57,588 nt of DNA, taken from positions 1 through 57,588 of the IMG/VR virus record IMGVR_UViG_3300031707_000018; one strand, given 5' to 3'. Position 1 is the stretch's first letter. Each line of letters opens with the position of its first letter. Position numbers and translations under genes: made by a program. This stretch comes from a virus. Below the pieces are notes generated by a model. It did not search any database. It saw nothing but the letters and a program-made list of their open reading frames with translations, and was not told the DNA's origin. Positions 36,093-54,108 of this stretch are shown piece after piece.

Positions 36093-37953
36093 GTCTCAAT
36101 TCCCTACTGAGCTGGACGCTTAGTCCAAGCGCCTTCAGGAGCTGCTGCGGATTGTTCTGCCTCATGCAGTCCGCGATACGGAACTTTACCGGCACCTTGG
36201 CCACACCCTCCGAGGGTGCTTCCTCGGCCATGACCGGGAATCCCAACGAGGAGTTGAAGGGCTTGACCTTGAACACCTCGAAGGGATTGCTGGTCTCATC
36301 GCCGACCGGCACGCTGATCGACGGAGCGAATCCGTCAGCCAGCTGCTGGGTCAGCTGCTCTACTTCCTCCGCCGACGGCGTGTGGCCACCTTCACGAGCA
36401 CAGAGGTTACCGCGCTCGATGGCCTCGACGACCTTGTCGAGGATGTTCAGGATGACCTTGGCGCTCTTGACGTCAGCTAGGAGCTTCCAGGAGAAGTTGC
36501 CCTTGACCTGCTTGACTTCCACTCTCCTCCAAGCCTTCATGACCAGCCGTTGCAGGATCTTGTACAGCTGATCCAGCCCGTAGAAGCTGAACTCCAGCAA
36601 CATGTCGACCGGCGTGCACTTCATCACGGCGTCGTAGGTATCCGGATCCTTCCATCGAGCTTTATCGAGGAGGTCCAGCTGATACTTGACGAACCGGCTG
36701 TAGTGCTTGTCGAGGGCATGAAGCACGGGTTCAAGAAGCTGCTCCGCCATGAAGCTGTTGACCTTGGAGGCCCATCCAGCCATGGCAGAGTTGAAGTTGA
36801 CCGTGAGTCCGTTGGCCGCAATGGACAAGGCGGCCCGGACGACCTTTAGGTGATCTGTGGGAATCGCCCCGATGAACAGGACAAGGCAGCAGAGGACGTC
36901 TGAGGTGATCCTAGAACTGAGCACGGCGGCGATCTTGTTGAGCTGCTCGTTGGCCGAGTCGGCTCTGTAGAGGATGAGCCGATACATATCCTTGCTCATC
37001 TGCCAGCTGGATTCGGCAGCCTCGCCAGCAGTACGGCCGTAGGCGCCCATCTCTCCGCTGGTCTGATGGAACTCAGATTTGTACGCCTGGGTGGCGCTGT
37101 AAGAGGCCCATCCTTCGTAGCCTGGTTCGTTGGTGTTGGCCACATAGTCATTGACGCTGCGGTCGATGCAGTCCCAGTAGTAAGGGCCTCTGGTCCTATC
37201 GTACTGGGCAACGGCCGGGTCCTTCTCCTGAGCTTGGGCCTGGGCCATGACCTCGTCGGTATCCATCCCTTCCAGGTCCGTACCCTTCAAGGTGTCCTTC
37301 AGGAGAGAGCGAGCTGACTCTGCGTTGTCGGCGATCTGATACAGGAGAGCAGCTAGTCCTAGCACGATCTTCCCGGCCATTGGTGCGCGCTCGGTGCCAG
37401 GAGGCATCTTCGGTGCGGCCATGTCAGCTGCGTCCTTGGCCGAGTGCGGCTGGAGGATGGTGTTGGCCACCCGGAGCAGCAGGAACTGGCTGAACATGGA
37501 GACCACGTCGGCGGCGCTGATATCGTCGCCGGCGGCCCACTCAGCTTCTTCGATGAGCCGGGCGTCCACCTCGGAGTTGCCCGACAACACGGAGATCAGC
37601 TGGAGGGAGTTCACGCTGGTCCGCTTGAACTTGTACTCCAGAGCTGCCACGTACTCGTCGAAGAAGATCTTGTCCTCGGGCCGACCAGGGAAGAGCGAGC
37701 GTAGCGCATGCCGTACTTCGTAGGCCTTCTCGTGGACAGGGACGAACTCGCGGGTGGTGCGCTTGATCTCGCTCTGCAGCTTGTCGATCTTGCCCAGCAG
37801 ACCGGCGACCTTCTTGTTGAGGGATTCGATCATCTCCGGAGTGATTCTGTTGGCAGCTCGAACGACGGGTTCTCCGCCGATGGGAGCAGAGGACTCCCGC
37901 TCCACCAAATAGCGGATGTCCGGCTTCTGTCCAAGGATTCTGCCTTCAGTCAT
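36055..37953 (-). CDS. Large helical head-region protein of unknown function
   Basis: 632 residues, ATG at 37953, overlapping the terminase end by 8 nt. N-terminal coiled-coil segment (MIESLNKKVAGLLGKIDKLQSEIK), then long mixed helices. Hydrophobic stretches (SDVLCCLVLFIGAIP and KIVLGLAALLYQIA) occur in the middle but do not look like clear transmembrane pairs. It is conserved in place between terminase and portal. Many myophages carry an unknown gene here; no function can be given. Confidence 0.6.
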   Translation of the reverse strand: MTEGRILGQKPDIRYLVERESSAPIGGEPVVRAANRITPEMIESLNKKVAGLLGKIDKLQSEIKRTTREFVPVHEKAYEVRHALRSLFPGRPEDKIFFDEYVAALEYKFKRTSVNSLQLISVLSGNSEVDARLIEEAEWAAGDDISAADVVSMFSQFLLLRVANTILQPHSAKDAADMAAPKMPPGTERAPMAGKIVLGLAALLYQIADNAESARSLLKDTLKGTDLEGMDTDEVMAQAQAQEKDPAVAQYDRTRGPYYWDCIDRSVNDYVANTNEPGYEGWASYSATQAYKSEFHQTSGEMGAYGRTAGEAAESSWQMSKDMYRLILYRADSANEQLNKIAAVLSSRITSDVLCCLVLFIGAIPTDHLKVVRAALSIAANGLTVNFNSAMAGWASKVNSFMAEQLLEPVLHALDKHYSRFVKYQLDLLDKARWKDPDTYDAVMKCTPVDMLLEFSFYGLDQLYKILQRLVMKAWRRVEVKQVKGNFSWKLLADVKSAKVILNILDKVVEAIERGNLCAREGGHTPSAEEVEQLTQQLADGFAPSISVPVGDETSNPFEVFKVKPFNSSLGFPVMAEEAPSEGVAKVPVKFRIADCMRQNNPQQLLKALGLSVQLSRELRHARNVDKARPNS

Positions 37954-39868
37954 CCTTTGGGTCTCCCTTGCGCTCCCGTTCCCACGTGGTTCTTCCGAGC
38001 CTTCCGGACATGGGGTGGTCCTTGTTCCCCATCGACTCTCTGAAGGACCGGCCGCTCTTGCCCATCAACTGCGCCATGGTTCCATCCCAGTCCTTGTGTC
38101 CGGAGTTGATGGCGAAGATTCTCGGCTTAGGACTTATCTTATCACGCTTCTCACGCACTTCACGAGATTCCATGGATGGATGGGTATCCATGGAATCCTC
38201 GCCGAAGTGGCCGGTGAATGCAATGCGGTTGCTGCTGGTGATCTTGGCGAGGTCCGTCATCTCCATGACGAAGGCGTAGACCGTCAGCATCCAGGCAACC
38301 AGTGTGTGCTCCTTCTCATCCGAGAAGACAGGTTGCCCCTCGCGTCCGTAGCGCAGGACTCGGAACTCACGCATCTGGCCGACGAGTCCGGTCGACGTGT
38401 CCTCGGACTTGGGGAGGATGACGTCCAGGCGCTCGACGTGACGAACGGCCATGTCGACGACGAGCGGCTTCACCATCTTCTTGACAAAGGCTTTGGTCAG
38501 AGGATCACGGACCAAGACCTTGGATCCGAAGTCGATACCCTTGACCTTCCTGTGGAGTCGGCCCTGCGGGTTGTTCATGCCTTTGATCTTCAGGGCCTCG
38601 ATCTGGGTGGTGCCATCCCCCTCGTCTACGTAGATCCAGTTCGGGCTCCAGATGGCATTCAGCTCGGCCATCCGGTCAACGGCCGCATGCTGGGTGAACT
38701 CGCCGGCGGAGATGACCTCCTTGTAGGCCGGCCGGAGCTTGCCAGTCTCCGGGCAGTAGCCGGTGATCATGATGTGGACGCCGATGCCCTTCCGGTTCCA
38801 GTCCGCCCCCATGGCATAGATCTCGCCCTTGATCGGCTGGGAGTTGGTGATGGAGTACTCCCGCAAGCTGGCCTCAATGTGCTTGTGCTGGAAGAGGCCA
38901 ATCTCCATCTCGCCGAACTCAGCCAGGAATTCATGGGAGAACGAGTTCTCCGAGTAGGTCTCCCGGTAGAACAGTTCCATCTCCGCCGACCAGTTCGGGG
39001 AGACCATGGAGGTATAGTGGAACTCGCGGAAGCCAAGGCCCTTGTTCACGCACCACTTGAAGAAGAGCCCGCGGCGGCCGGTGGGCGTCGAGCTGACAAT
39101 CATCTGGGCGATCGGACCGGTGCCGGTGAGGGAGGCCAGCACGGACTCGAGCGTCTCATCGTCGAGCATGTCCCCTTCGTCGAGGATCAGCAAGTTCGGC
39201 GTCTGGCCACGGGACTTGTCGCCCTTCTGCCCTGTACGCACGCCGGCCGTGATGCCGATCATCGAGGAGTTGCCGTCCGGGTGGGCGAACTCGATCTCGT
39301 GGGGGTTCATTCTGTCCCGGATGCGGAACTCGGGGTTCGACAGCAGCTGGCTCTTCTGGATGTACTTCCGGATCCTGTCGAAGATGATGTCCACCTGGTC
39401 CTGGTAAGGACACAGGATGACGACCCGGAAGTTCGCCTGGGTAGCTACGTGGTAGAGGGCCAGGATGGCGAGCAGCTCGGTCTTACCGATCTGGCGCCCC
39501 ATCCGGAAGATCTTCCTCCTGGCCGTGCACCGGAGAGCTTCGATCTGGTACCACCGCGGCTCCCAGTCGATCTCAACGCGCGCCCAGGCGATGACGTCGT
39601 TGAGGTACCACCACTGCGACTGCTCGTCGGCATCAAGGGCGGCCAGCTGAGGGTCGCTGCGGATCTGGATGTCCATCGAGGTGAAGCAGGAAGGCGAGAA
39701 CTCGCGGGCTGAGTGCTCGGAGTACTTCTTCAGGCAGTCGTCGCAGACGATGTCCCTCTCCTGGTCCGTTCCGGACTTGACCCTGGTCCGGAGGTCGTTC
39801 CAGCGAGCCACGCGCTGCGGCCGCAGTTGGGCCGACAGCTTCTCGGCAAGTTCTCCGTAATCCTTCAT
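37946..39868 (-). CDS. terL: Terminase large subunit
   Basis: 640 residues, ATG at 39868. A CxxC...C cluster lies at residues 42-61. Walker A RMGRQIGKTE (122-131, Lys129), Walker B NLLILDEGD (Asp230, Glu231) and the coupling motif SSTPTG (259-264) define the ATPase. The RNase-H-like nuclease has acidic positions in YAMGADWNRKG (Asp356), YVDEGDG (Asp415, Glu416) and a later DEKEHTLVAWM. It translocates DNA into the prohead through the portal and cuts the concatemer. Length and order are normal. Confidence 0.95.
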   Translation of the reverse strand: MKDYGELAEKLSAQLRPQRVARWNDLRTRVKSGTDQERDIVCDDCLKKYSEHSAREFSPSCFTSMDIQIRSDPQLAALDADEQSQWWYLNDVIAWARVEIDWEPRWYQIEALRCTARRKIFRMGRQIGKTELLAILALYHVATQANFRVVILCPYQDQVDIIFDRIRKYIQKSQLLSNPEFRIRDRMNPHEIEFAHPDGNSSMIGITAGVRTGQKGDKSRGQTPNLLILDEGDMLDDETLESVLASLTGTGPIAQMIVSSTPTGRRGLFFKWCVNKGLGFREFHYTSMVSPNWSAEMELFYRETYSENSFSHEFLAEFGEMEIGLFQHKHIEASLREYSITNSQPIKGEIYAMGADWNRKGIGVHIMITGYCPETGKLRPAYKEVISAGEFTQHAAVDRMAELNAIWSPNWIYVDEGDGTTQIEALKIKGMNNPQGRLHRKVKGIDFGSKVLVRDPLTKAFVKKMVKPLVVDMAVRHVERLDVILPKSEDTSTGLVGQMREFRVLRYGREGQPVFSDEKEHTLVAWMLTVYAFVMEMTDLAKITSSNRIAFTGHFGEDSMDTHPSMESREVREKRDKISPKPRIFAINSGHKDWDGTMAQLMGKSGRSFRESMGNKDHPMSGRLGRTTWERERKGDPKDD

Positions 39869-39872
39869 TCAC

Positions 39873-40298
39873 CTAACTATGCAGCAATCTCGCTTCGTTC
39901 CCGATCGCGCCGCGGAGGGAGTATGCAGAGTCGTGCATGGCCTGGAGAGCTGACTGCCTCATGGTGTAGGCCATCCGGCTGTCCACCATGGGTCCGGCGT
40001 ACTCGGGACCTGTCTGCCCGAGCTTCTCAAGGAACCTGGCGGCCTTGACGGCAGTTCGGCCGATCTCCAGAGGAGCAGAAGCGACGCCCCAGCCGACGTG
40101 CCAGGCAGCCAGCGGGAGCAGGGATGCCCCTCCCGTGGATGGGGCCATCATTAGGGCCCCTGGAGTCATGAGCATCTCCGGGATACCGGAGAATGGAGTG
40201 CGGCGCCGGCGCATGAACTGGAGAAGACCGCTTGGGCCGCCACCGTCCAATGGGTGGCCCATGTTCTCGTTGAAGGTCTTACGGACGAAGGACGCCAT
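39873..40298 (-). CDS. Small Gly/Ala-rich protein, putative ejection protein
   Basis: 141 residues, starting at an ATG whose first base is shared with the stop of the next gene upstream. Basic N-terminus (MASFVRKTFNENMGHP), Arg-rich FMRRRRTPF, then a hydrophobic segment rich in Ala, Gly and Met (LMTPGALMMAPSTGGASLL). It is the last of three similar small genes between the 1840-residue nuclease protein and terminase. Membrane or capsid-internal location is inferred from composition. Confidence 0.5.
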   Translation of the reverse strand: MASFVRKTFNENMGHPLDGGGPSGLLQFMRRRRTPFSGIPEMLMTPGALMMAPSTGGASLLPLAAWHVGWGVASAPLEIGRTAVKAARFLEKLGQTGPEYAGPMVDSRMAYTMRQSALQAMHDSAYSLRGAIGNEARLLHS

Positions 40299-40711
40299 CA
40301 GATGTTCTCCCCGAAGAACCTGCCGACCCTACCAAAGCGGCCGGACATCTGGAAGAACGGGTCCTTGATCCCCGTCCCGTTGCGTGCGTAGTGGAGAGCC
40401 AGCGTCATGTCCGCAGCGCCCCCATAGTTGGAGCCCATGCCGTACGGCCTGTCTCCCGTTCCGAAGGGTCCGACCTGGGCGTTGGCCAGCAGGTTGGACA
40501 TCATGCTGGCTTCCTTCTCCCGCTTCCAGCCGACCGAAGCCCGCTTGGCTTCGTACAAGGCCCCCACGGGAGCTAGCACACCGAAGGCTGCGACGCCTGT
40601 GCCGAGGCCCATGCCGACACCCGTCGCGATGCCCATGAGCTGTTGCCTGGGTGTGGTCCTGGCAAGAACCTGGCTCAAGCCACCGTACGCCAATGATGTA
40701 GCTGACGCCAT
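40298..40711 (-). CDS. Small Gly/Ala-rich protein, putative ejection protein
   Basis: 137 residues, ATG at 40711. A central hydrophobic Gly-rich stretch (MGIATGVGMGLGTGVAAFGV) could cross or perturb a membrane. The C-terminal half is Gly/aromatic (RPYGMGSNYGGAADM, FGRVGRFFG). It shares composition with its two neighbours and with the C-terminal part of the 1840-residue protein. No named family. Confidence 0.5.
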   Translation of the reverse strand: MASATSLAYGGLSQVLARTTPRQQLMGIATGVGMGLGTGVAAFGVLAPVGALYEAKRASVGWKREKEASMMSNLLANAQVGPFGTGDRPYGMGSNYGGAADMTLALHYARNGTGIKDPFFQMSGRFGRVGRFFGENI

Positions 40712-40714
40712 GGC

Positions 40715-41311
40715 TTACCACAGCCCCAACTTCTGACCGCCCCACTTGGCTGCCTTGTAGCCGCCGAAGAGTCCGAGACCGACCCGGCCACCTACCCGGC
40801 TTCCACCAGCTACGTTGCCACCGAAGGTCGCTGTGGCTCCGAGAGCACGCCCAACCATGGATCCACCCATCCAGGCAGCTCCGCCCTTGAGCATGTTGCC
40901 GTAGCCGATTGTGGCACCACCAGCTACAAGACCGATACCACCACCGATCCCATACCCTAGCTTCCTGGACATTGCCGTCGTACGCATGCCACCAGCGAAG
41001 CCATGCAGCTCCTTCATGGCAGCTCGTCCTGCTGAGCCAGGAATCTGTTCTCTGCGCAGCTGGGACAGAACATTGCTCGCCCCAGGGACTGTCTCGAGGA
41101 ACTTGTTGGAGAGAGACCCACCAGAGATCATGTCCTTGACGTTGGGACCTCCGAAGTAGTTGGTGAATCTCTCGTAGGCACCAACGAAGCCTCCCTGATG
41201 GAAGGATTCCAGGAGCCCCAATCTCTGACCACCAAGATTGGCGTACGCATTGCCGCGCTTCATGCCAATCATGCTGGCGCCCGCAGTAACCATTCCTTCG
41301 CCGAGACCCAT
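40715..41311 (-). CDS. Gly-rich hydrophobic protein, putative ejection protein
   Basis: 198 residues, ATG at 41311. The C-terminal half is almost all Gly, Ala and small hydrophobic residues (YGIGGGIGLVAGGATIGYG, then MGGSMVGRALGATATFGG), while the N-terminal half is amphipathic. It follows the 1840-residue nuclease protein by 9 nt and is probably co-translated with it. It may form a membrane channel or tether for that protein during infection; this is inference from composition and context. Confidence 0.5.
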   Translation of the reverse strand: MGLGEGMVTAGASMIGMKRGNAYANLGGQRLGLLESFHQGGFVGAYERFTNYFGGPNVKDMISGGSLSNKFLETVPGASNVLSQLRREQIPGSAGRAAMKELHGFAGGMRTTAMSRKLGYGIGGGIGLVAGGATIGYGNMLKGGAAWMGGSMVGRALGATATFGGNVAGGSRVGGRVGLGLFGGYKAAKWGGQKLGLW

Positions 41312-41320
41312 CTCAACCTC

Positions 41321-44300
41321 CTAGGCCGCCCTGGCCATCATCCTCGAACGATTACGATCGCGGCTGGGCCGCCTGTGAGCGTGGGAGTACCGCTCGACCA
41401 CGCTGCGCACCCGGCTGTTGTGACGGCTGTTCCAGAGGACATAGTTCACCAAGCCCGACGTCGGCGTGAACTGCGAGATCGGCCGCGGAGCATCGGGCCT
41501 GGATACTATATTCCTCTTACTGTCGGAGATCTGCAAGGTCCTGGTGTTGATGTTCTGCGCGCGAATGGGGTTGTAGGCCCCGCCGAACGGGGAGAGGTCC
41601 TGCCTGGCGTTGTCGATCGCATGGAACTGCTGGAGAGGACCAAGGCCGTCCTCGCGAATAGCCGAGAACCCTCCAGCTGGGAACAGTTGATCCTGGCCGA
41701 TCGGTTCCGTGGGACTAGCCGTTCTCTTCGGCCTGGAGTTCAAGGTGAACTGCCCGGCCTTGCGCGTGCCATAAGCTGCAACTTCGCCGAGGATCATGGA
41801 CCCGATCATCGTAGCGGCGAAGCCAACCACCCAAGCAAGAGCGCCAACGACTCCGCCTACGACCGTTCCAGCTCCTGGGACGACGGAGCCCAGAGCAGCT
41901 CCGGCTGCCGCAGCTGTTGCAGCTCCGGCAGCGATTCCGACCTTCAGCCCAGCCATCTGGATCGTCATGTTGACCGTGCTGGCGGTGGTCTCAATGGCGA
42001 AGCCAGCAGCTGCATTATCGTACTGGTCCATGATGGACAGACCGTCGACGACGCCCATGGCCAGGTTCAGCCCGGGCACCTTGCCAGCGAATCGACCGAT
42101 CTTGGAGACGCCGAACTTGCTCAGTTTGTTCCCAGCACCAGTGATGTACTTCATCCGCTTGCCCATCTTGGCGGCGAAGATGGGGTTCTTGGCCTCCATA
42201 GCTGACAGCCGGCCGCCAATCCGAGTGAACGAGTTCTCGATCCTGGCGATCGCTTTGACTTTGTCAGCTGAAGCTCCAATGTGGGCTCCCATCATCTGCT
42301 CGAGGTTGCCAACATTGTTGAGGATTGCGCCCATGCCTTCGACCTTGGCTTGCCACGACGCCGGGTTCTTCACCAAGTTCTTGTACAGGTACTTGGCCGC
42401 GTCGACCTTCTGTCTGAAGGCCGAGGCGTGCTTGAACTTGGTAGCCCCAGCACGTCCCCACTTCTCACCCCCACCTACGACTGCACCCCGCTTGACGTAC
42501 GCTTTGAGCAGACCCTTCTCCTTGAGCTGGAGGTACTTGTTGACGTCGAGACCGTAGCTGGAAGCTACGGGCCCAATGGCAAAGTTCTTCATCCAGGTTG
42601 TGGCCTTCTGGACGAAGTTCTTTGTTAGACCACTGGTCTTGTTCTTGGTCCACTCCATCATCCTCGAGGGAATGCCCTTCCAGCCCTCGGTGATCTTCTC
42701 AATTGGGTTCTTGTCCTCGAGGTTCTTGGAGAGCTTGGCGATGAAGCCCTTCTTGGTCTTCCGGGCGTTGTTCCAGACTTGGACCTCGGCGTCGGAGTAG
42801 CCCATCTTCTTGAGGCCCTTCTCGAGCCGGGTCTGGAAGCGAGATACCTCTCGGATGCCCATCCTGTCGGCTGGTCCAGCTATGCCTTTAGCTTCGTAGT
42901 AGTGGTCCCAGACTCTGTGGAGGGGAGTCTTGGATTCACCGAAGAAGGTCCAAGCAGCTTGGAGCCCGAGCATCATGAAGGTCTTCCCGCTATCGTCGGA
43001 TGGGTCAGCGCCCTGCTGGAACTCAGCCCACTCACCGGGCTTGGAGCTGGAGTGGAACGCACCATAGGGCTGCATGGCCATGAATTCGTTGGGGCTCCTG
43101 TAGGCGGGCCCCATGGCCATTCCAGCAGAGATCTGCTCATCACGCCTCGGGCCGCGGAACATCGAGTAGCCGAGCCAGAGAGCTCCAAGTCCAATAGCGA
43201 TCCCGCCACCGATCTTCAGGTGGGTGGCGGAAGCAGCCTTGACCCCCTTGGTTACGCCGGCAGCATTCGCCACGGCTTCCTTCGAGGCCGCGTTGGTTGC
43301 GTCCTTCATCGCTCGGATCTGGGGAGTCCCAGGGCCTGGAGCTGGAAGTGCCATCTTGGGAGGCATCGTCTCGGGAATGGGCACTGTCGCCGTACGTGGC
43401 TGTAGAAGCACCTTCTTCTGGGTCTGTGCGATCGCGACGTTCTCGAGCTGTTGGTTGGTGACCAAGGCCATATCGCTCACACCCTGGAGCTTCGGAGGGG
43501 AAGCTTCCGGGGTGCGCACCAAGGCCTGAGCCTTGACCGATTCCCCTTTGGGGATAGCAGCATTGGTGGCGGTGGGTGTTGCCGGCGGAGTATGGAGGAC
43601 CTCCTTATGTGATCTCTGGAGATCCTCCCAGCCCTTCTTGGCCCAATCCACCAAGACTTCGTCGGGATTGTCCTGCCCGAACCTGATGCACTCATGAAGC
43701 ATGGGCCCAAGTTCGGTCTTGTGCTTGCGGCCAAGGGCGATGAGATTCCGTACGTCTTTGGCCAGGGATGGCGAAGGCACGCCTGAGTTGTTTGTGGAAC
43801 CAAATCTTGGATCCCAACCAGGAAGTGAGCCCGGAGTGGAGATGCCGCGGTTCTTGATGGAAGACTTGATCATCGCCCTGGCACGCCCAGGGTTGACGAC
43901 CAAGTTACCCGTGGCGGCATCAACGAAGTTGCCGAGAACGGCATGTTCCAAATAGACGGACCCGGCAGCATCGGCCATTGCGAGACCAACGCTCTCAGGT
44001 ACTTTGATCCTGGACGAGGCCTGCACCAACTTGGTGTACAGCCGATTCTTCTGGTTCCTCGACTCGAAGTAGCTGAGACCTTCGGCATACTGTCCCCAAC
44101 TAAGATTGGCTTTGTTCAGGTAGCCCGCCAGAGCCTGCCATGACCGCTTGCTCACGTCATAGCCAGACCCGAAGTCCGACACGTTACCGCCTTCCATCCT
44201 GGAAGGGTTGATTCCATAGCCGGCGATGTGCCAGCCGCTGACGGGCTTGCGGATGCCGGGCAGGTAGCCATCCTTCTTGATCTGGGAGTTGCGCCTTGAC

Positions 44301-46843
44301 ATGATCTCCGCGCGGAGAGAGGTCCCGGCCTGGTACATCCTCTGCATCTCGCTGCGGGTGTACGGCGTGCCGCTGTTGCGGTGGCCCTCCTGGACCAGAC
44401 CGTACATCATGGACATGGCGCCGCTCTTCACGATCCGGTCAGCAGAGGACAAGGTGTTGTGGGTGACCCGCTCGCCGGCAATGAGGCTGATGGCCCTGTC
44501 CATCTGCCAGCCCTTGGAGCCCCACATCCCGACGCCACCGCGGGCGGCCATGGCCTCCGTCTCCGCGAAGACGGCCTTGTTGAGGATGTTGGATCCGGGG
44601 AAGACGGAGGCAGCTCCAGCTCGAACCAGCTGGAGGTTGAGGTTCTTGCCACGGTCGCCGATCAGCACGCCGACGTTGCGGGCGTAGGTCGATCCCCGTG
44701 GGTCGATGACGAGCCGCAGGCTCTGCTGCCTCTCGATCAGCTTCTCCAGGTATTCGCCGCCAGCCTTGCCGGCGAACTGATCCTGCTCGAATAGAGGCGT
44801 GGTGCCAGGTGATTTGGAGCTGGTCTCAGGTGCGTCGATGCCGGCGAGACGGACAGACACCCTGCGTGGACGAAGCTTGTGGAACAGACTCTTCCGTTCG
44901 AGCTGGACGGTGTCGGCGTCGAGGACCTTGACCTTGAACCGTTTGAGGTCCATGACCCCGACCCAGGCACTGCTGTTCAGCCCGCCGGCCTTGACCTGGG
45001 AGGCCCGCATCGTCTTGTACTCTTCGCGGGTGAGCCGCTCCTCCCTGTTCCTGGCGGAGCCGGCGGCCGTCTCCCAGATGGCCTTCAGGGCCTGCCGGCG
45101 TTCATAGGTGATCCCTTGCCTCTCCGGATACTTGACGTTGAGGGAGGAGCGCATCTGCTGAACGCGCGCGTTGTCGGCGGTGACCGGGTTGCCAAAGAGG
45201 CGTCCGGACCCGAAGTCCGTCAGGGCCCTGGCGACGCCGCGGCCGGTCGCCCCGAAGTAGATGCCCTGGATGACCATGTTGTCCGGACGGCTGGGGTCCC
45301 TGATGCCGGCGATTGGCTCCTGACGCCTGCTGGCCAGAGCTTCGCCGATCGTGATGCCGGCGAGAAGGGCAGCTGCTGCTACTTTAGTGGGGTGCTTGGT
45401 GGCGAGCGACCTGAACTTGGACGAGACCTCGCCGTAGGCCTTGCCGTAGATGTGCCGAAGACTCTCTGGCTGGCGAGCTGCAGCGCGTGCCGTACCAGCT
45501 GCGCCAGCAGCTGCGATGGCCTGCTTCTCTCCGAACACGGCGGCCCAGTTTGGGTCCAGGGCCCTGGTGGCCATCTGGGCCACTTCCTTCATCTGGGTCT
45601 TGGACTTCCATTCGATCGCAGACTTGTAGTTGTCGAAGAACTGCTTCTGGGTGTAGTTGAGCCCGTACTTGTTCATCTTGGTCCGGATCTCTTCCCAGGC
45701 ACCCTTGTAGCGTCCGGACTTGACGGTGAAGATGTCGGAGAGGATCTCTTCGTACGCCGTATCAGCCAGAGCTTCGTGGCTCGTCAGCTTACCTTCCTCG
45801 ATCAGACCCTGAGCGGCCTTCTCGAGCGTGGAACCCTTCAGCCCACTGGGCGCCAGGGCCTTCAGCAGCACATCGGCGGACCAGCCCTTGGCGTACCGGA
45901 TATCCGGGCGCTGCATACCGGCCTTGAACGCCTGGCTGCCGGCGCCAGCACCGATTCCTGTCTTGGCTCCAAGGATGTCGATGTAGCGACGATAGGCTTC
46001 GTAGCTGACGCCGGCGCCGCGGGACTTCTCCTGGAAGAACTTCTTGAAGCCCTGGTGGTGCTCCATGATCTTGTCGTAGCTGAGCTTGTCGATCTCGTCG
46101 ACCGACAGCTTGCCCGACTTGATCTGGTTGCGGACGTCCTTGCTGATCTGGCCAAGGGTGAAGAATTCCTTGCCGCCCCTCTTGCCCTGCATAGCGGACT
46201 CTTGGGCGGCGAGGTACATGAACTTGTGAACCCCGGAAGCCATGTCCTCGATCTGACCCCGCTGCCGGGCGAAGTTCACGGCCTTGACCCAACGCTGGTG
46301 AACGGCCGGATTGGTCCGGGCGGCCGCTTCGCTCATCATCAGCATGTCGAAGTCGATGTTCCAGCCGCGGATCTTGTGGCCGCCCTTCAGGTACCCGGTC
46401 ATCTTAGAGACTAAGTCCGACTCCTTGGCCAGGATGTCGCTACGACCGGCGATGGCGTGCCGGGTCATCTCGACGTGCCGGTTGAGGACTCCGTAGAGGA
46501 CGTTGTCCCTGTTCTTGTAGCCGGTCTGCCACCGGGTGCCATGAGGACCCACGGACTCGAGGATGTTGGCGGCCGTGTCGGCGGTGATCTCACCGGCGTC
46601 ATAGGCCTTGACCGTCTTCTCGAGCCCATGGGTGTAGCGGACGTAGGCGTTCTTGGTACCTTGCTCACGGAGGGCGAACTGGGAGATGCCGACGTCGCCG
46701 CGGACCCCCGGAGCGAAGGCCTGCATGAGGCCCGTGGTCTCCAGGTCGAAGACAAAGGTCTTCGGAGCCGACGAGGGTGGCGCAAGACTGCTGGGAAGCA
46801 GCGGGGAAGCCTTGCCGGATGCGCCAGGGATCAGCGGGTGCAT
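41321..46843 (-). CDS. Giant DnaQ-like exonuclease/SNase fusion protein (1840 aa)
   Basis: I start it at the ATG at 46843, with GAGGGG just upstream. Residues ~30-300 form a DEDD exonuclease: FDLETTGL (Asp33, Glu35), WNIDFD (Asp164 or Asp166) and a less certain third motif near YRRYID. Residues ~634-775 form a staphylococcal-nuclease domain with the catalytic set present: VLDADT (Asp642, Asp644), VRLAGIDAPET (Arg665, Asp670, Glu673) and STYARN (Arg722), then LNLQLVRAGAA. A hydrophobic segment lies near 490-500 and long Ala/Gly-rich ones near the C-terminus. It stands between the putative small and the large terminase. I infer a packaged or ejected nuclease; DNA processing during packaging is the alternative. 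Confidence 0.75.
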   Translation of the reverse strand: MHPLIPGASGKASPLLPSSLAPPSSAPKTFVFDLETTGLMQAFAPGVRGDVGISQFALREQGTKNAYVRYTHGLEKTVKAYDAGEITADTAANILESVGPHGTRWQTGYKNRDNVLYGVLNRHVEMTRHAIAGRSDILAKESDLVSKMTGYLKGGHKIRGWNIDFDMLMMSEAAARTNPAVHQRWVKAVNFARQRGQIEDMASGVHKFMYLAAQESAMQGKRGGKEFFTLGQISKDVRNQIKSGKLSVDEIDKLSYDKIMEHHQGFKKFFQEKSRGAGVSYEAYRRYIDILGAKTGIGAGAGSQAFKAGMQRPDIRYAKGWSADVLLKALAPSGLKGSTLEKAAQGLIEEGKLTSHEALADTAYEEILSDIFTVKSGRYKGAWEEIRTKMNKYGLNYTQKQFFDNYKSAIEWKSKTQMKEVAQMATRALDPNWAAVFGEKQAIAAAGAAGTARAAARQPESLRHIYGKAYGEVSSKFRSLATKHPTKVAAAALLAGITIGEALASRRQEPIAGIRDPSRPDNMVIQGIYFGATGRGVARALTDFGSGRLFGNPVTADNARVQQMRSSLNVKYPERQGITYERRQALKAIWETAAGSARNREERLTREEYKTMRASQVKAGGLNSSAWVGVMDLKRFKVKVLDADTVQLERKSLFHKLRPRRVSVRLAGIDAPETSSKSPGTTPLFEQDQFAGKAGGEYLEKLIERQQSLRLVIDPRGSTYARNVGVLIGDRGKNLNLQLVRAGAASVFPGSNILNKAVFAETEAMAARGGVGMWGSKGWQMDRAISLIAGERVTHNTLSSADRIVKSGAMSMMYGLVQEGHRNSGTPYTRSEMQRMYQAGTSLRAEIMSRRNSQIKKDGYLPGIRKPVSGWHIAGYGINPSRMEGGNVSDFGSGYDVSKRSWQALAGYLNKANLSWGQYAEGLSYFESRNQKNRLYTKLVQASSRIKVPESVGLAMADAAGSVYLEHAVLGNFVDAATGNLVVNPGRARAMIKSSIKNRGISTPGSLPGWDPRFGSTNNSGVPSPSLAKDVRNLIALGRKHKTELGPMLHECIRFGQDNPDEVLVDWAKKGWEDLQRSHKEVLHTPPATPTATNAAIPKGESVKAQALVRTPEASPPKLQGVSDMALVTNQQLENVAIAQTQKKVLLQPRTATVPIPETMPPKMALPAPGPGTPQIRAMKDATNAASKEAVANAAGVTKGVKAASATHLKIGGGIAIGLGALWLGYSMFRGPRRDEQISAGMAMGPAYRSPNEFMAMQPYGAFHSSSKPGEWAEFQQGADPSDDSGKTFMMLGLQAAWTFFGESKTPLHRVWDHYYEAKGIAGPADRMGIREVSRFQTRLEKGLKKMGYSDAEVQVWNNARKTKKGFIAKLSKNLEDKNPIEKITEGWKGIPSRMMEWTKNKTSGLTKNFVQKATTWMKNFAIGPVASSYGLDVNKYLQLKEKGLLKAYVKRGAVVGGGEKWGRAGATKFKHASAFRQKVDAAKYLYKNLVKNPASWQAKVEGMGAILNNVGNLEQMMGAHIGASADKVKAIARIENSFTRIGGRLSAMEAKNPIFAAKMGKRMKYITGAGNKLSKFGVSKIGRFAGKVPGLNLAMGVVDGLSIMDQYDNAAAGFAIETTASTVNMTIQMAGLKVGIAAGAATAAAAGAALGSVVPGAGTVVGGVVGALAWVVGFAATMIGSMILGEVAAYGTRKAGQFTLNSRPKRTASPTEPIGQDQLFPAGGFSAIREDGLGPLQQFHAIDNARQDLSPFGGAYNPIRAQNINTRTLQISDSKRNIVSRPDAPRPISQFTPTSGLVNYVLWNSRHNSRVRSVVERYSHAHRRPSRDRNRSRMMARAA

Positions 46844-46852
46844 CAAGCCCCT

Positions 46853-47749
46853 CTATTCACGGATCAGGAATCCCGTCTTCGGGTCCCGCTTCACTTCGTG
46901 CACTTGCCGGTGCCCTTCCCTCCCTGGGGCTTCTTGGCCTTCGGCTTCGGTGGGAGCTTGGTGTTCGGGACGAACGACTGGCCCAGCTTGCTCGGCTTGG
47001 CCGCGTGCGTCCATCCCCCGATCCCCTTGATTCCCATTTGGAAGCTCGGGAATGGTGCTGGCATGGTTTGGTGCCTCCACGACCGTGAACTCGGCGTCTA
47101 GCTCCTGACGATGCTCGATGAGCCTCTTCTGGCCATCCTCCACGCCCTTGTTGGCCAGCTTCATCTTCTCCCGCAGGCGCTGGAGGACCTCCGTTGGGCT
47201 GAGGCGCTTGCGCGCGTCCTCCTTGGACTTCTCCTTGCGGGTGGCCATGAGGTCGGTCTGCAGGGCCTGGTTGCGCTTCTGGAGCGTGTCGATGATGCCG
47301 ATGGCCGGGTGGGCCTTCTGCTCCATGACCGCAGCGCCTTCGGGAGTGAAGCCGCGGAAGGAGTCCACCACGATGTCCGACCGTCCAAGCGCCTCGGCCG
47401 CCCGCTTGATTAAGACGCCGTTGAGGGCGATCGCCCCGATCTGCCATCGGTCGAAGACGTCGTCGGGCTTGATGTCGAGCTCCCTGGCCATACCTTGGGC
47501 CCAGGTGTTGATCAGGTTGAGCTCGATGAAGCACATCCTCCCGATCGGGAGGGGCTTGCCCATCCGGACCAGAGGGCAATCGGTGTGCTCGTGACAGCTG
47601 GGCCCGGTGCAGATCTTCGGGGTGAACTTGGACATGCCGGCCTGGTGGGACCGGAAGTACTCGGCGATCTGACCCAGCTCCACCTCGTTGAAGGTTGGCA
47701 GCAGGTATCCGGTCGGGACCATCAGGGCTTCGGTCTTCACTTCGGCCAT
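46853..47749 (-). CDS. Putative terminase small subunit
   Basis: 298 residues, ATG at 47749, overlapping the preceding gene by 13 nt. N-terminal Cys/His cluster (ICTGPSCHEHTDCPLVRMG, then RMCFIELNLI) may bind zinc. A helical middle follows (FDRWQIGAIALNGVLIKRA) and a basic coiled part (LQKRNQALQTDLMATRKEK). This layout resembles proteins encoded as DNA-recognition partners of large terminases in big phages. The last ~60 residues are low-complexity and overlap another open frame with good codon use (46891-47064). Assignment rests on layout and position. Confidence 0.4.
   Translation of the reverse strand: MAEVKTEALMVPTGYLLPTFNEVELGQIAEYFRSHQAGMSKFTPKICTGPSCHEHTDCPLVRMGKPLPIGRMCFIELNLINTWAQGMARELDIKPDDVFDRWQIGAIALNGVLIKRAAEALGRSDIVVDSFRGFTPEGAAVMEQKAHPAIGIIDTLQKRNQALQTDLMATRKEKSKEDARKRLSPTEVLQRLREKMKLANKGVEDGQKRLIEHRQELDAEFTVVEAPNHASTIPELPNGNQGDRGMDARGQAEQAGPVVRPEHQAPTEAEGQEAPGREGHRQVHEVKRDPKTGFLIRE
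46891..47064 (-). CDS. Candidate nested small basic protein (57 aa)
   Basis: An out-of-frame reading inside the end of the 298-residue gene. It starts at an ATG at 47064 with GGAGG nine bases upstream and ends at TGA 46891. The peptide begins MPAPFPSFQMGIKGIGGW and is rich in Lys and Pro (KLPPKPKAKKPQGGKG). Its third codon positions are strongly G/C, more like the genome's real genes than the host frame is over the same stretch. Either both frames are used or the larger gene is shorter than drawn. Confidence 0.4.
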   Translation of the reverse strand: MPAPFPSFQMGIKGIGGWTHAAKPSKLGQSFVPNTKLPPKPKAKKPQGGKGTGKCTK

Positions 47750-49432: not shown

Positions 49433-49728
49433 TCGATCTCCACGAGCTGACGCCCGGCGATCGTGATCTGCCAGCCGAGGCAGTCGTCCTTCTTGACCAC
49501 CCGCCCCATGCCCTTCTCGAACTCCTTGTGCAGGCAGTGAGCCTTCTCCACGAGCTTGGCTCGGAGGAGTTCTCTGAGGAGCCTCCTCACAAGCCTCAGC
49601 TTCTCGTCCAGGTGGCTCTTACGCTTCCAGGCAGCATAGGCGACCCAGGCAGCGTTCACCGGCGCCGGCTCCAACGCCAGCGCCTTCAGTACGGAAGCGG
49701 ACTTGCCGTTCAAGACTTGAGCTTCCAA
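49429..49728 (-). CDS. Winged-helix DNA-binding protein
   Basis: 99 residues, ATG at 49728, overlapping the previous gene by 19 nt. SASVLKALALEPAPVNAAWV is the first helical pair, VRRLLRELLRAKLVEKA the recognition region, and GWQITIAGRQLVEI a wing ending in the LT-x2-G-R pattern common in MarR/PadR-type regulators. It is encoded together with the RHH protein, so the two may form a regulatory pair. Confidence 0.5.
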   Translation of the reverse strand: MEAQVLNGKSASVLKALALEPAPVNAAWVAYAAWKRKSHLDEKLRLVRRLLRELLRAKLVEKAHCLHKEFEKGMGRVVKKDDCLGWQITIAGRQLVEIE

Positions 49729-50327
49729 GCTTCACCCTCCTTCTCGACGTACGACTCCTTCCTCCAGCCGGTGATCTCGCTGAAGGCATACTCCCAGACC
49801 TCATCGACGGAGATGTCCTCGATGGACACCCCGGAACCGTACTTGATGACCATGATGTCCTTGATCATGAGGGCTGCTTGGGGCGCCTGCAGGACGATCG
49901 CCGCGAACTTCTGACCAAGAACGAAGGCCGTCTTGTCGTTCACGGCGGTGACAATGCTCCCCTTGCCATCGGGAAGGTTGTCGCTGTTCTGTATGCCCTC
50001 GCCGATCTCCCAGCTGATCCCGTAGATCCAGGGCTGCTCGACGCCAGGCCCCTCCTTGGTGTCGAAGGTGATGACTTTGACCTCAGCCGGAGACAGGGCC
50101 GGAACGGTCTTCAACTTACCGGCTGCTGGGGCTCCGATCACCGCCTCATGCTCCTCGGCGTCGGCCTCCCAGTTGAAGAACTTGCTCCCTTGGAGCATCT
50201 TCATGCCCATGTGATAAGCCTTGTCGATGGCCTCCTGGGCATCGTCCGCCGGGTTGAACTTCTGGTTCGCCAGACAGTTCAGCAGGTGCTCGAAGAAGTC
50301 CTTGGAGATGATCATGGGCTTGTTCAT
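49710..50327 (-). CDS. Tail-tube-like paralogue in the accessory region
   Basis: 205 residues, ATG at 50327. The first ~65 residues are helical with no counterpart in the tube protein. The C-terminal part carries IKYGSGVSIEDI followed by SVDEVWEYAF and ITGW, the same loop as GSGISIDDI...DEN in the tube gene (23.1 kb) and in the 53.3-kb gene. It lies between regulators and small unknown genes, more than 20 kb from the tail cassette. It may be a minor tube part, an assembly decoy, or an exapted beta-barrel protein. Confidence 0.55.
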   Translation of the reverse strand: MNKPMIISKDFFEHLLNCLANQKFNPADDAQEAIDKAYHMGMKMLQGSKFFNWEADAEEHEAVIGAPAAGKLKTVPALSPAEVKVITFDTKEGPGVEQPWIYGISWEIGEGIQNSDNLPDGKGSIVTAVNDKTAFVLGQKFAAIVLQAPQAALMIKDIMVIKYGSGVSIEDISVDEVWEYAFSEITGWRKESYVEKEGEAWKLKS

Positions 50328-51396: not shown

Positions 51397-52302
51397 CTAC
51401 TTCTCCTCTTCCTTCTTCCACTCGGAAGCCAGCCGCTTGGCCTTGACCATGAGCTTCTCTCGGCCCCTGTCCTCCCGGGCCTTCTGCTCGTTCCAGAGGT
51501 CCTCGTCGACGATCTCCTCGATGTGCTTCTCGACCAGGTTCACGAGGAATTCGGGAGGCAGTGCGTCGAGTTCCCACGACTGGTCTCCGTACTTCCGTTC
51601 GTAGCCGGCGAACCGGACATCGGTGACCTTGGCCGGGTTGGGAGGAGGCTGCAGCTCATCTACCTGGTCCATGGTGAGGGCAATGCGCTTCAGCTCCACG
51701 TGGTCGTCGAAGATGCCGAGCCTGTTGGCTATGTCCCGACTCATGTCGATCCCGGAAGGGTCGTGGTCGCCAAGGTGAAGGATCACGATGTCCTGCCCCT
51801 CGTCCTCGGCCCACTTGATGTGCCTCTGGGCGTCTCGCCACAGCTCGGACTGGGAGACGTACCCGCGGCAGCTCAAGTATGGCACGTCCCACTTCTGGCA
51901 GGGCCCGGCGATGACGTCGACTAAGGCGTCCTTCTCGATCCAGACCTCCACCCGCGTCTTCTGATCCTTCCACTTGTCGACGGCGAACTGGCTGGCGGCT
52001 GAGATCAGGATGTCGGCCGGTGAGTTCCAGTGGGGAGAGATCCGGCAGTGCCTCGTGCGATCGCAGATGGCGTCCCAGGGGATGACGCCGGCAAGGCGCC
52101 CGTCAGAGATGATCCCTCCCAGCCTCTTGTAGTTCCGCTCGTTGTTGGCCAGCCAACCGCGCGCTACGAACTGGTAGTACAGCTGCCGCAACGTCAGGTC
52201 GAAGCCCTTCGCGGCATACTCACCCATGATCTCCAGGGCCTGCTTGAGCACGGCCTTGGAGTCGGCGCGGAACTTCACCCATGTGTACTGTTGAACGTGC
52301 AT
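51397..52302 (-). CDS. Topo mini-A: Spo11/TopoVI-A-like protein
   Basis: 301 residues, ATG at 52302. LTLRQLYYQFVARGW (Tyr42/Tyr43) matches the catalytic-tyrosine helix of the 5Y-CAP domain in Spo11 and topoisomerase VI subunit A. A Toprim domain follows with VEVWIEKDAL (Glu123) and HLGDHDPSG (Asp179, Asp181), which bind Mg ions. It is shorter than TopoVI-A (~350-390), and no B subunit ATPase is visible nearby, which fits the stand-alone Topo mini-A group. It could cut or relax DNA during replication or packaging. The Arg/Lys-rich C-terminal helix is an extra feature. Confidence 0.8.
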   Translation of the reverse strand: MHVQQYTWVKFRADSKAVLKQALEIMGEYAAKGFDLTLRQLYYQFVARGWLANNERNYKRLGGIISDGRLAGVIPWDAICDRTRHCRISPHWNSPADILISAASQFAVDKWKDQKTRVEVWIEKDALVDVIAGPCQKWDVPYLSCRGYVSQSELWRDAQRHIKWAEDEGQDIVILHLGDHDPSGIDMSRDIANRLGIFDDHVELKRIALTMDQVDELQPPPNPAKVTDVRFAGYERKYGDQSWELDALPPEFLVNLVEKHIEEIVDEDLWNEQKAREDRGREKLMVKAKRLASEWKKEEEK

Positions 52303-53307: not shown

Positions 53308-54108
53308 CTACTTAGACTCCGGCTTGGCCTCAGTCTTCGCCTTCTCGACCGCGGCCTTCCAACGGAGCTCCCAGCCCTCGTCGACAGCATATCTTCGTTC
53401 GTTAGGGAACAGAACCTTGGCCGCGAGGTCGGTAAGCCGACGCCCCAACGTGTCACCCCACGACACTCCCTGGCCCGGCATCCATCCCGTCCACATGTAA
53501 GCGTCGTAGGTCAGGTTCTCGTCGATCGCGATGTCGTCAATCGAGATGCCCGACCCGTACTCCTGGATGACGACGTTCGAGAGGGTGGCCCACCACGCGT
53601 GGCCATACTCGTTGATCGCTTGCAGGATGATCGCGTCGAACTTGTCCCCGTGCCGGATCTCCGACTTCTCGAGCAGCAGGTTGATCAAGCTGCCCTGCAC
53701 GGTGCCGTCGCGCTGAACCTGCACCGACACGCCCTGAAGCGACCCTGCCTGCTTGATCTGCCCGTCGGCCAGCAGGAAGGCCTGCACGTCGACTCCGGAG
53801 AAGGAGAAGTAGACGTTGCCGGGATCGTGCTTGAACTTGAGGTTGGCGATGTCCAAGGCGGCGGGGAAGCACTCCGCCAGCTTCAGCTTCACCGGGTCCG
53901 CGGATCCGAGCCGGTACACAAGCGGGTGCCCCAAGTTGAATTCCGCGTCGCGCTTCAGGTTGATCATGGCAGTGAGCGCCTCCCCCATACGGCGCGCTTT
54001 GCCACCATCGCCGGGCCCGTCACTCGGTCCTACCGTATCGAGCATCACGCTCATTGCGTCGGCCAGTTTGCCGACCGCCGACCACAAGGAATTCCAGTCG
54101 TACTTCAT
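53308..54108 (-). CDS. Tail-tube paralogue with N- and C-terminal extensions
   Basis: 266 residues, ATG at 54108 behind AAAGGAG. Residues ~95-205 follow the tube protein step by step: FSFSGVDVQAFL, LQGVSVQVQRDG, VQGSLINLLLE, AINEYGHAWWATLSNVVI and YGSGISIDDIAIDENLTY. An N-terminal helical part (~90 residues) and a Lys/Glu-rich C-terminal helix (KAAVEKAKTEAKPESK) are added. The gene stands more than 30 kb from the tail cassette. Second-copy tube proteins may make alternative tube layers or tips; this one could instead have a non-virion role. Confidence 0.65.
   Translation of the reverse strand: MKYDWNSLWSAVGKLADAMSVMLDTVGPSDGPGDGGKARRMGEALTAMINLKRDAEFNLGHPLVYRLGSADPVKLKLAECFPAALDIANLKFKHDPGNVYFSFSGVDVQAFLLADGQIKQAGSLQGVSVQVQRDGTVQGSLINLLLEKSEIRHGDKFDAIILQAINEYGHAWWATLSNVVIQEYGSGISIDDIAIDENLTYDAYMWTGWMPGQGVSWGDTLGRRLTDLAAKVLFPNERRYAVDEGWELRWKAAVEKAKTEAKPESK

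Follow-up and report, generated by a model that had tools for sequence, protein, structure and literature searches.

Polyvalent proteins are large, multidomain phage proteins of unlike activities, whose genes lie near those for the portal and the terminase and which are predicted to be packaged and injected (PMC5512222). In another described system, the baseplate hub homologue of BtI1, Hardies et al. (2007) found a staphylococcal nuclease (SNase) domain and called the reason for it not obvious (PMC2147016). SNase and DEDDh exonuclease domains, and the habit of the lineage concerned of loading nucleases onto large virion proteins, are already known, and the protein described here, which we call X, is a new variation on these: in a rare uncultured phage, two unlike DNA-cutting enzyme domains lie in one very large protein beside a packaging gene.

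Gene X and its two nuclease domains

The window, i.e. the whole stretch of DNA analysed, is a virus record of 57,588 bases in which nearly all structural genes are on the minus strand. The preliminary description had placed X at 41321..46843 without giving a strand; the open reading frame call agrees with that placement and assigns it to the minus strand, as an 1840-aa protein (DEDDh exonuclease, SNase and Gly/Ala-rich regions) with its ATG at 46843, immediately preceded by an in-frame TTG at 46846, and its stop at 41321. The order of transcription is a 298-aa Cys-rich protein, X, three small hydrophobic Gly-rich proteins, the large terminase subunit (TerL), a 632-aa protein and the portal; beyond the portal come further head genes including the capsid protein, tail genes, and three very large proteins, the last of them a hub/endolysin-type protein. 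Elsewhere in the window, two minus-strand genes (49710-50327 and 53308-54108) are paralogous through a common 72-residue region (35% identity, E = 1e-10), and a third (51397-52302, minus) matches PHROG 6247, annotated as DNA topoisomerase, at E = 1e-110.

Three relatives of X were found in IMG/VR: G003 (contig L020), of 1662 aa with both exonuclease and SNase; G001 (L002), of 1393 aa with SNase only; and G004 (L022), a partial relative. G001 also holds sequence related to the paralogous gene pair, and a stand-alone exonuclease was not found upstream in the parts of its contig that were covered. A tblastn search of phage and plasmid records returned nothing related to X as an entire protein. 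The double-nuclease frame is real and not a product of chance: unrelated contigs hold orthologs in which both domains (L020) or the SNase alone (L002) persist.

The SNase domain (44522..44854, minus) is identified by PF00565, which matches X residues 664-774 with E = 1.3e-11 and 45.3 bits against a Pfam cut-off of 21. In an alignment with staphylococcal nuclease, D644 (just upstream of the Pfam match), R665, D670, E673 and R722 pair with Asp21, Arg35, Asp40, Glu43 and Arg87, so that the Asp, Arg, Asp-x2-Glu and second Arg recognized earlier by eye are all retained as catalytic residues. This is also the best-conserved region of X, with 56-58% identity to the orthologs vs. about 22-55% elsewhere. 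SNase enzymes use Ca2+. A scan of genome contigs found only ordinary bacterial SNases; PADLOC left the window X unmatched and gave the two orthologs a weak SNase-domain match only. Descent from the hub SNases described below was considered as an origin for this domain and has no tree support.

The N-terminal domain (residues about 25-424; 45572..46771, minus) lies below the detection of standard models: PF00929 matched neither X nor its ortholog in G003 at E ≤ 10, scans of X with Pfam, NCBIfam and PADLOC did not detect an exonuclease, and phmmer and a two-sequence profile run against the PDB returned nothing relevant to this region. A DEDDh profile was built, independently of X, from 23 known or Pfam-detected enzymes. 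It gave X 17.7 bits, for a single sequence an E value of about 2e-7, and the ortholog 15.5 bits, while the highest score among 5000 shuffled copies of X was 7.3; of 489 windows taken from real proteins of this group of phages, scores above 10 were confined to X, its ortholog, ME3_11 and MTATph1 CDS0027. The motifs stand in the canonical order, namely D33-x-E35 (motif I), N162..D166 (motif II) and H356-x4-D361 (motif III). In an alignment of X, its ortholog and 14 environmental X proteins, no column is invariant apart from those of the six DEDDh residues (D, E, N, D, H, D) and a single Gly; since the 14 were chosen by motif searches, this shows agreement between the window and its relatives rather than an independent test. 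Mean AlphaFold pLDDT for the region was 43 when two sequences were supplied and 58 when sixteen were. The model of mean pLDDT 58 found RNase T as its weak top matches in the PDB by Foldseek (E > 0.1), and among viral structures a YprB RNase H-like protein, a mycobacteriophage exonuclease and a DEDDh enzyme (probability 0.97-1.0).

Profile and alignment, and more weakly the structural model, support a DEDDh 3'-5' exonuclease-type domain, and with the Pfam-detected SNase both nuclease assignments of the preliminary description hold. Asp33, Glu35 and the WNIDFD motif (N162 and D166) are present in the translation as it had said; the extent it gave, residues 1-310, has to be revised to about 25-424, because that range missed the ExoIII-type motif III, H356-x4-D361.

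A conserved terminase-adjacent module

The Ala/Gly-rich hydrophobic parts attributed to X were located at residues 486-506 (45326..45388, minus), followed by a conserved ARALTDFGSGR motif; at residues 1211-1229 (43157..43213, minus), present in G001 and not in G003; and at the C-terminal Gly/Ala region, residues 1635-1691 (41771..41941, minus), kept in orthologs. The three small proteins after X are likewise Gly-rich, as had been stated (25.8, 17.5 and 12.1% Gly). The first, w1 (40715..41311, minus; 198 aa, 25.8% Gly), has positional counterparts in G001, G003 and G004. The second, w2 (40298..40711, minus; 137 aa, hydrophobic), ends in LALHYARNG, which by eye resembles the G-D-[IL]-V-[LF]-[GA]-[ML]-H-N of relatives, with a profile score about equal to the best shuffles. 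The third, w3 (39873..40298, minus; 141 aa), has a conserved C-terminal tail (TMRQxA...GNEAR), matches MTATph1 CDS0252 by tblastn (E = 3e-4), and has profile matches directly ahead of TerL in the majority of 80 environmental loci. On the other side of X, the 298-aa Cys-rich protein (46853..47749, minus) is the conserved first gene of the module, aligning with KLEB27-3 gp005 and recovered by profile in environmental loci at E values of 1e-64 to 1e-28. Of the terminase neighbourhood proposed earlier, the large subunit stands (TerL, 37946..39868, minus; PHROG 2, E = 4e-34; 33% identity to MTATph1 TerL), while the 298-aa gene taken for the small subunit is conserved in that position and is at most a putative small terminase.

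Searching with an alignment of TerL yielded 424 relatives, 80 of whose loci were examined. The recurrent order is a Cys-rich gene, X, a w2-type gene, a w3-type gene and TerL. Of the environmental loci, 30 are distinct and span a complete interval. In 17 of these X includes a DEDDh domain (14 aligned, L119 and L169 with interrupted reading frames, and L140, whose start is trimmed), as it also does in phage ME3; in the other 13 it is short and nuclease-free. An SNase in X was found in none of the 80, so the exonuclease-SNase fusion, seen only in the window phage and G003, looks confined to the window clade. The examined environmental loci show strong conservation of the C-terminal tails in X and in the w2-type and w3-type proteins; in the window the w3 tail is clearly kept, the w2 tail is recognizable by eye only, and that of X is not detectable. 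One idea considered was that the internal ARALTDFGSGR motif of X might be an old C-terminal tail; the tail profiles of X and w2 made from relatives, though, pick up no tail in the window protein. In many uncultured phages (L093-L172), small hydrophobic proteins preceding TerL share a w2-type tail (...SGDIVLGMHNSRRGY) or a w3-type tail (...AATSRARGVQAIQNSRLNARSALG), and these conserved endings look as if they bind one common partner. At L103:6347-9964 the protein that ends in the w3-type tail is not small but has 1205 aa, which adds a further size variant to the module.

The nearest cultured relatives are MTATph1, KLEB27-3 and ME3, at 28-33% identity over TerL, portal and hub (29-30% for the portal). 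By TerL, portal, hub and gene order, the window phage is a distant member of the lineage of Bacillus phage 0305phi8-36, a tie that runs through ME3 and its annotation. Both domain types are spread over virion-type proteins of these distant relatives. An SNase is found in the ME3 baseplate hub (ME3_37, E = 8e-17), in the MTATph1 hub homologue (CDS0032, E = 2e-9, with Asn at the Asp40 equivalent) and, weakly and with the Asp40 equivalent lost, in the KLEB27-3 hub gp035. A canonical DEDDh domain occurs in MTATph1 CDS0027 (1309 aa), which follows the probable tape measure protein and lies, like CDS0032, within OR602862.1 24648-44557 (L057). Another, recognizable by its motifs, with a profile score alone near noise, is in KLEB27-3 gp034, annotated 'structural protein'. 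ME3_11, at the module position of X, is a DEDDh protein with a hydrophobic segment and short tail at its end.

In several relatives, intein-like insertions interrupt TerL at the P-loop; the window TerL has none. That of L020 (9900-13130) contains Pfam Intein_splicing and LAGLIDADG_3 in the insertion, and those of KLEB27-3 (L005:5296-8250) and ME3 (L006:9152-11434) were recognized by eye. A TerL intein has reportedly been noted earlier for BtI1.

Possible roles of X

The reading we favour, with about an even chance of being right, is that X travels with the virion of a contractile-tailed phage, as cargo or as an ejection protein, and that its nucleases attack host or foreign DNA as the phage enters. 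We favour it because such nuclease domains recur on the virion-type proteins of the lineage and because X is coupled to hydrophobic partners. X would be made in a late structural operon together with these small Gly-rich proteins; its hydrophobic segments and the partners would fix it in the particle or aid it in crossing the host envelope; and on entry it would bring into play a Ca2+-dependent SNase endonuclease along with a DEDDh 3'-5' exonuclease that needs metal ions, a pair that may first cut and then break down host or competing DNA (or RNA). By analogy, the presence of one or both enzymes on virion-type proteins of related phages suggests that the particle carries them, and it is plausible that X enters with the phage DNA, as the preliminary description had supposed. 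Delivered in this way, it might benefit the phage by destroying host DNA or nucleotide-based defences, the other part of that proposal; none of the results, the PADLOC scan of X and two orthologs included, points to cyclic-nucleotide defence.

Against a role as virion cargo, the gene's place between the putative small terminase and TerL also fits packaging, the tree does not place the X SNase among the hub SNases with useful support, and the hub SNases of MTATph1 and KLEB27-3 have lost the Asp40 equivalent. G001 has no exonuclease and many relatives have a short, nuclease-free X, so neither nuclease is essential.

Because X adjoins TerL and its exonuclease is common there, the main rival is a packaging role, in which X stays in the cell and works with TerL in packaging or maturation, trimming DNA ends or resolving branches or concatemers beforehand or as packaging proceeds. 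The position next to TerL is conserved in most loci and the DEDDh domain is common in it, but 13 of the 30 distinct loci have no exonuclease in X, the SNase there is restricted to the window clade, relatives carry the same domain types on hub and post-tape-measure proteins, and long hydrophobic Gly-rich regions would be odd in a soluble packaging factor; we hold this role to be less likely than that of virion cargo. Two nuclease domains with complete catalytic residues would also suit a non-virion enzyme that degrades the host chromosome late or at lysis, for nucleotides or for lower viscosity; the gene lies within the structural cluster, though, and neither its hydrophobic regions nor the conserved hydrophobic neighbours would be necessary for such a task, which makes this improbable. 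Least credible, and very unlikely, is action on extracellular DNA outside the cell or at its surface during attachment, in the manner of tail-borne hydrolases, to which the SNase on relatives' baseplate hubs and the use of Ca2+ by such enzymes would be suited, since X is here encoded in the terminase-adjacent module and not among the baseplate genes.

If X is indeed carried in the particle, the host would receive a nuclease working in two steps ahead of all phage gene expression, a point of interest for the question of how plasmids, prophages or host DNA are overcome by entering phages. We offer a broader picture tentatively, as possible rather than probable: that this contractile-tailed lineage has a movable nuclease kit (DEDDh, often with SNase) that docks in the terminase-adjacent ejection module or in the baseplate, and that both parts are fused here in one delivered protein that would destroy host or rival DNA at entry. 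The conserved terminase-adjacent module with a DEDDh protein, found in many uncultured phages, gives unnamed gene families a testable function.

Comparison with described systems

RNase T/DnaQ-type DEDDh enzymes (PF00929) and X have motifs I-III in common and, as far as the low-confidence model suggests, the RNase H-like strand order, and RNase T is the top, though weak, Foldseek match in the PDB; X differs from them in falling below Pfam detection, in the long helical insert that separates motif II from motif III, and in being part of a giant chain. Closer in setting are ME3_11 and about 17 environmental X proteins, which like the window protein have a DEDDh domain with a large insert at the same place in the module. 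Unlike it, these proteins (529 aa for ME3_11, about 930-1230 aa for the environmental ones) are without an SNase, and they are too divergent to align well with the window X outside the motifs. In the literature within reach, from which subscription papers were mostly absent, we found no description of a phage structural protein in which SNase and exonuclease are fused.

X resembles the polyvalent proteins (Iyer et al. 2017) in combining unlike enzymatic domains in one chain encoded near the portal and terminase genes. Scans of X with Pfam, PHROGs and NCBIfam found no domain by which that class is defined, and the main text of the polyvalent-protein paper (PMC5512222) makes no mention of SNase, which X has.

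The BtI1 hub (PMC2147016) and ME3_37 belong to the same distant lineage and, like X, have an SNase fused into a giant virion-type protein. Theirs sits in a different gene, the hub, and a DEDDh exonuclease was not detected in the ME3 hub chain. X thereby extends the 2007 remark on a non-obvious staphylococcal nuclease in a baseplate hub to a second large protein, in which the SNase is joined by an exonuclease and encoded beside the terminase.
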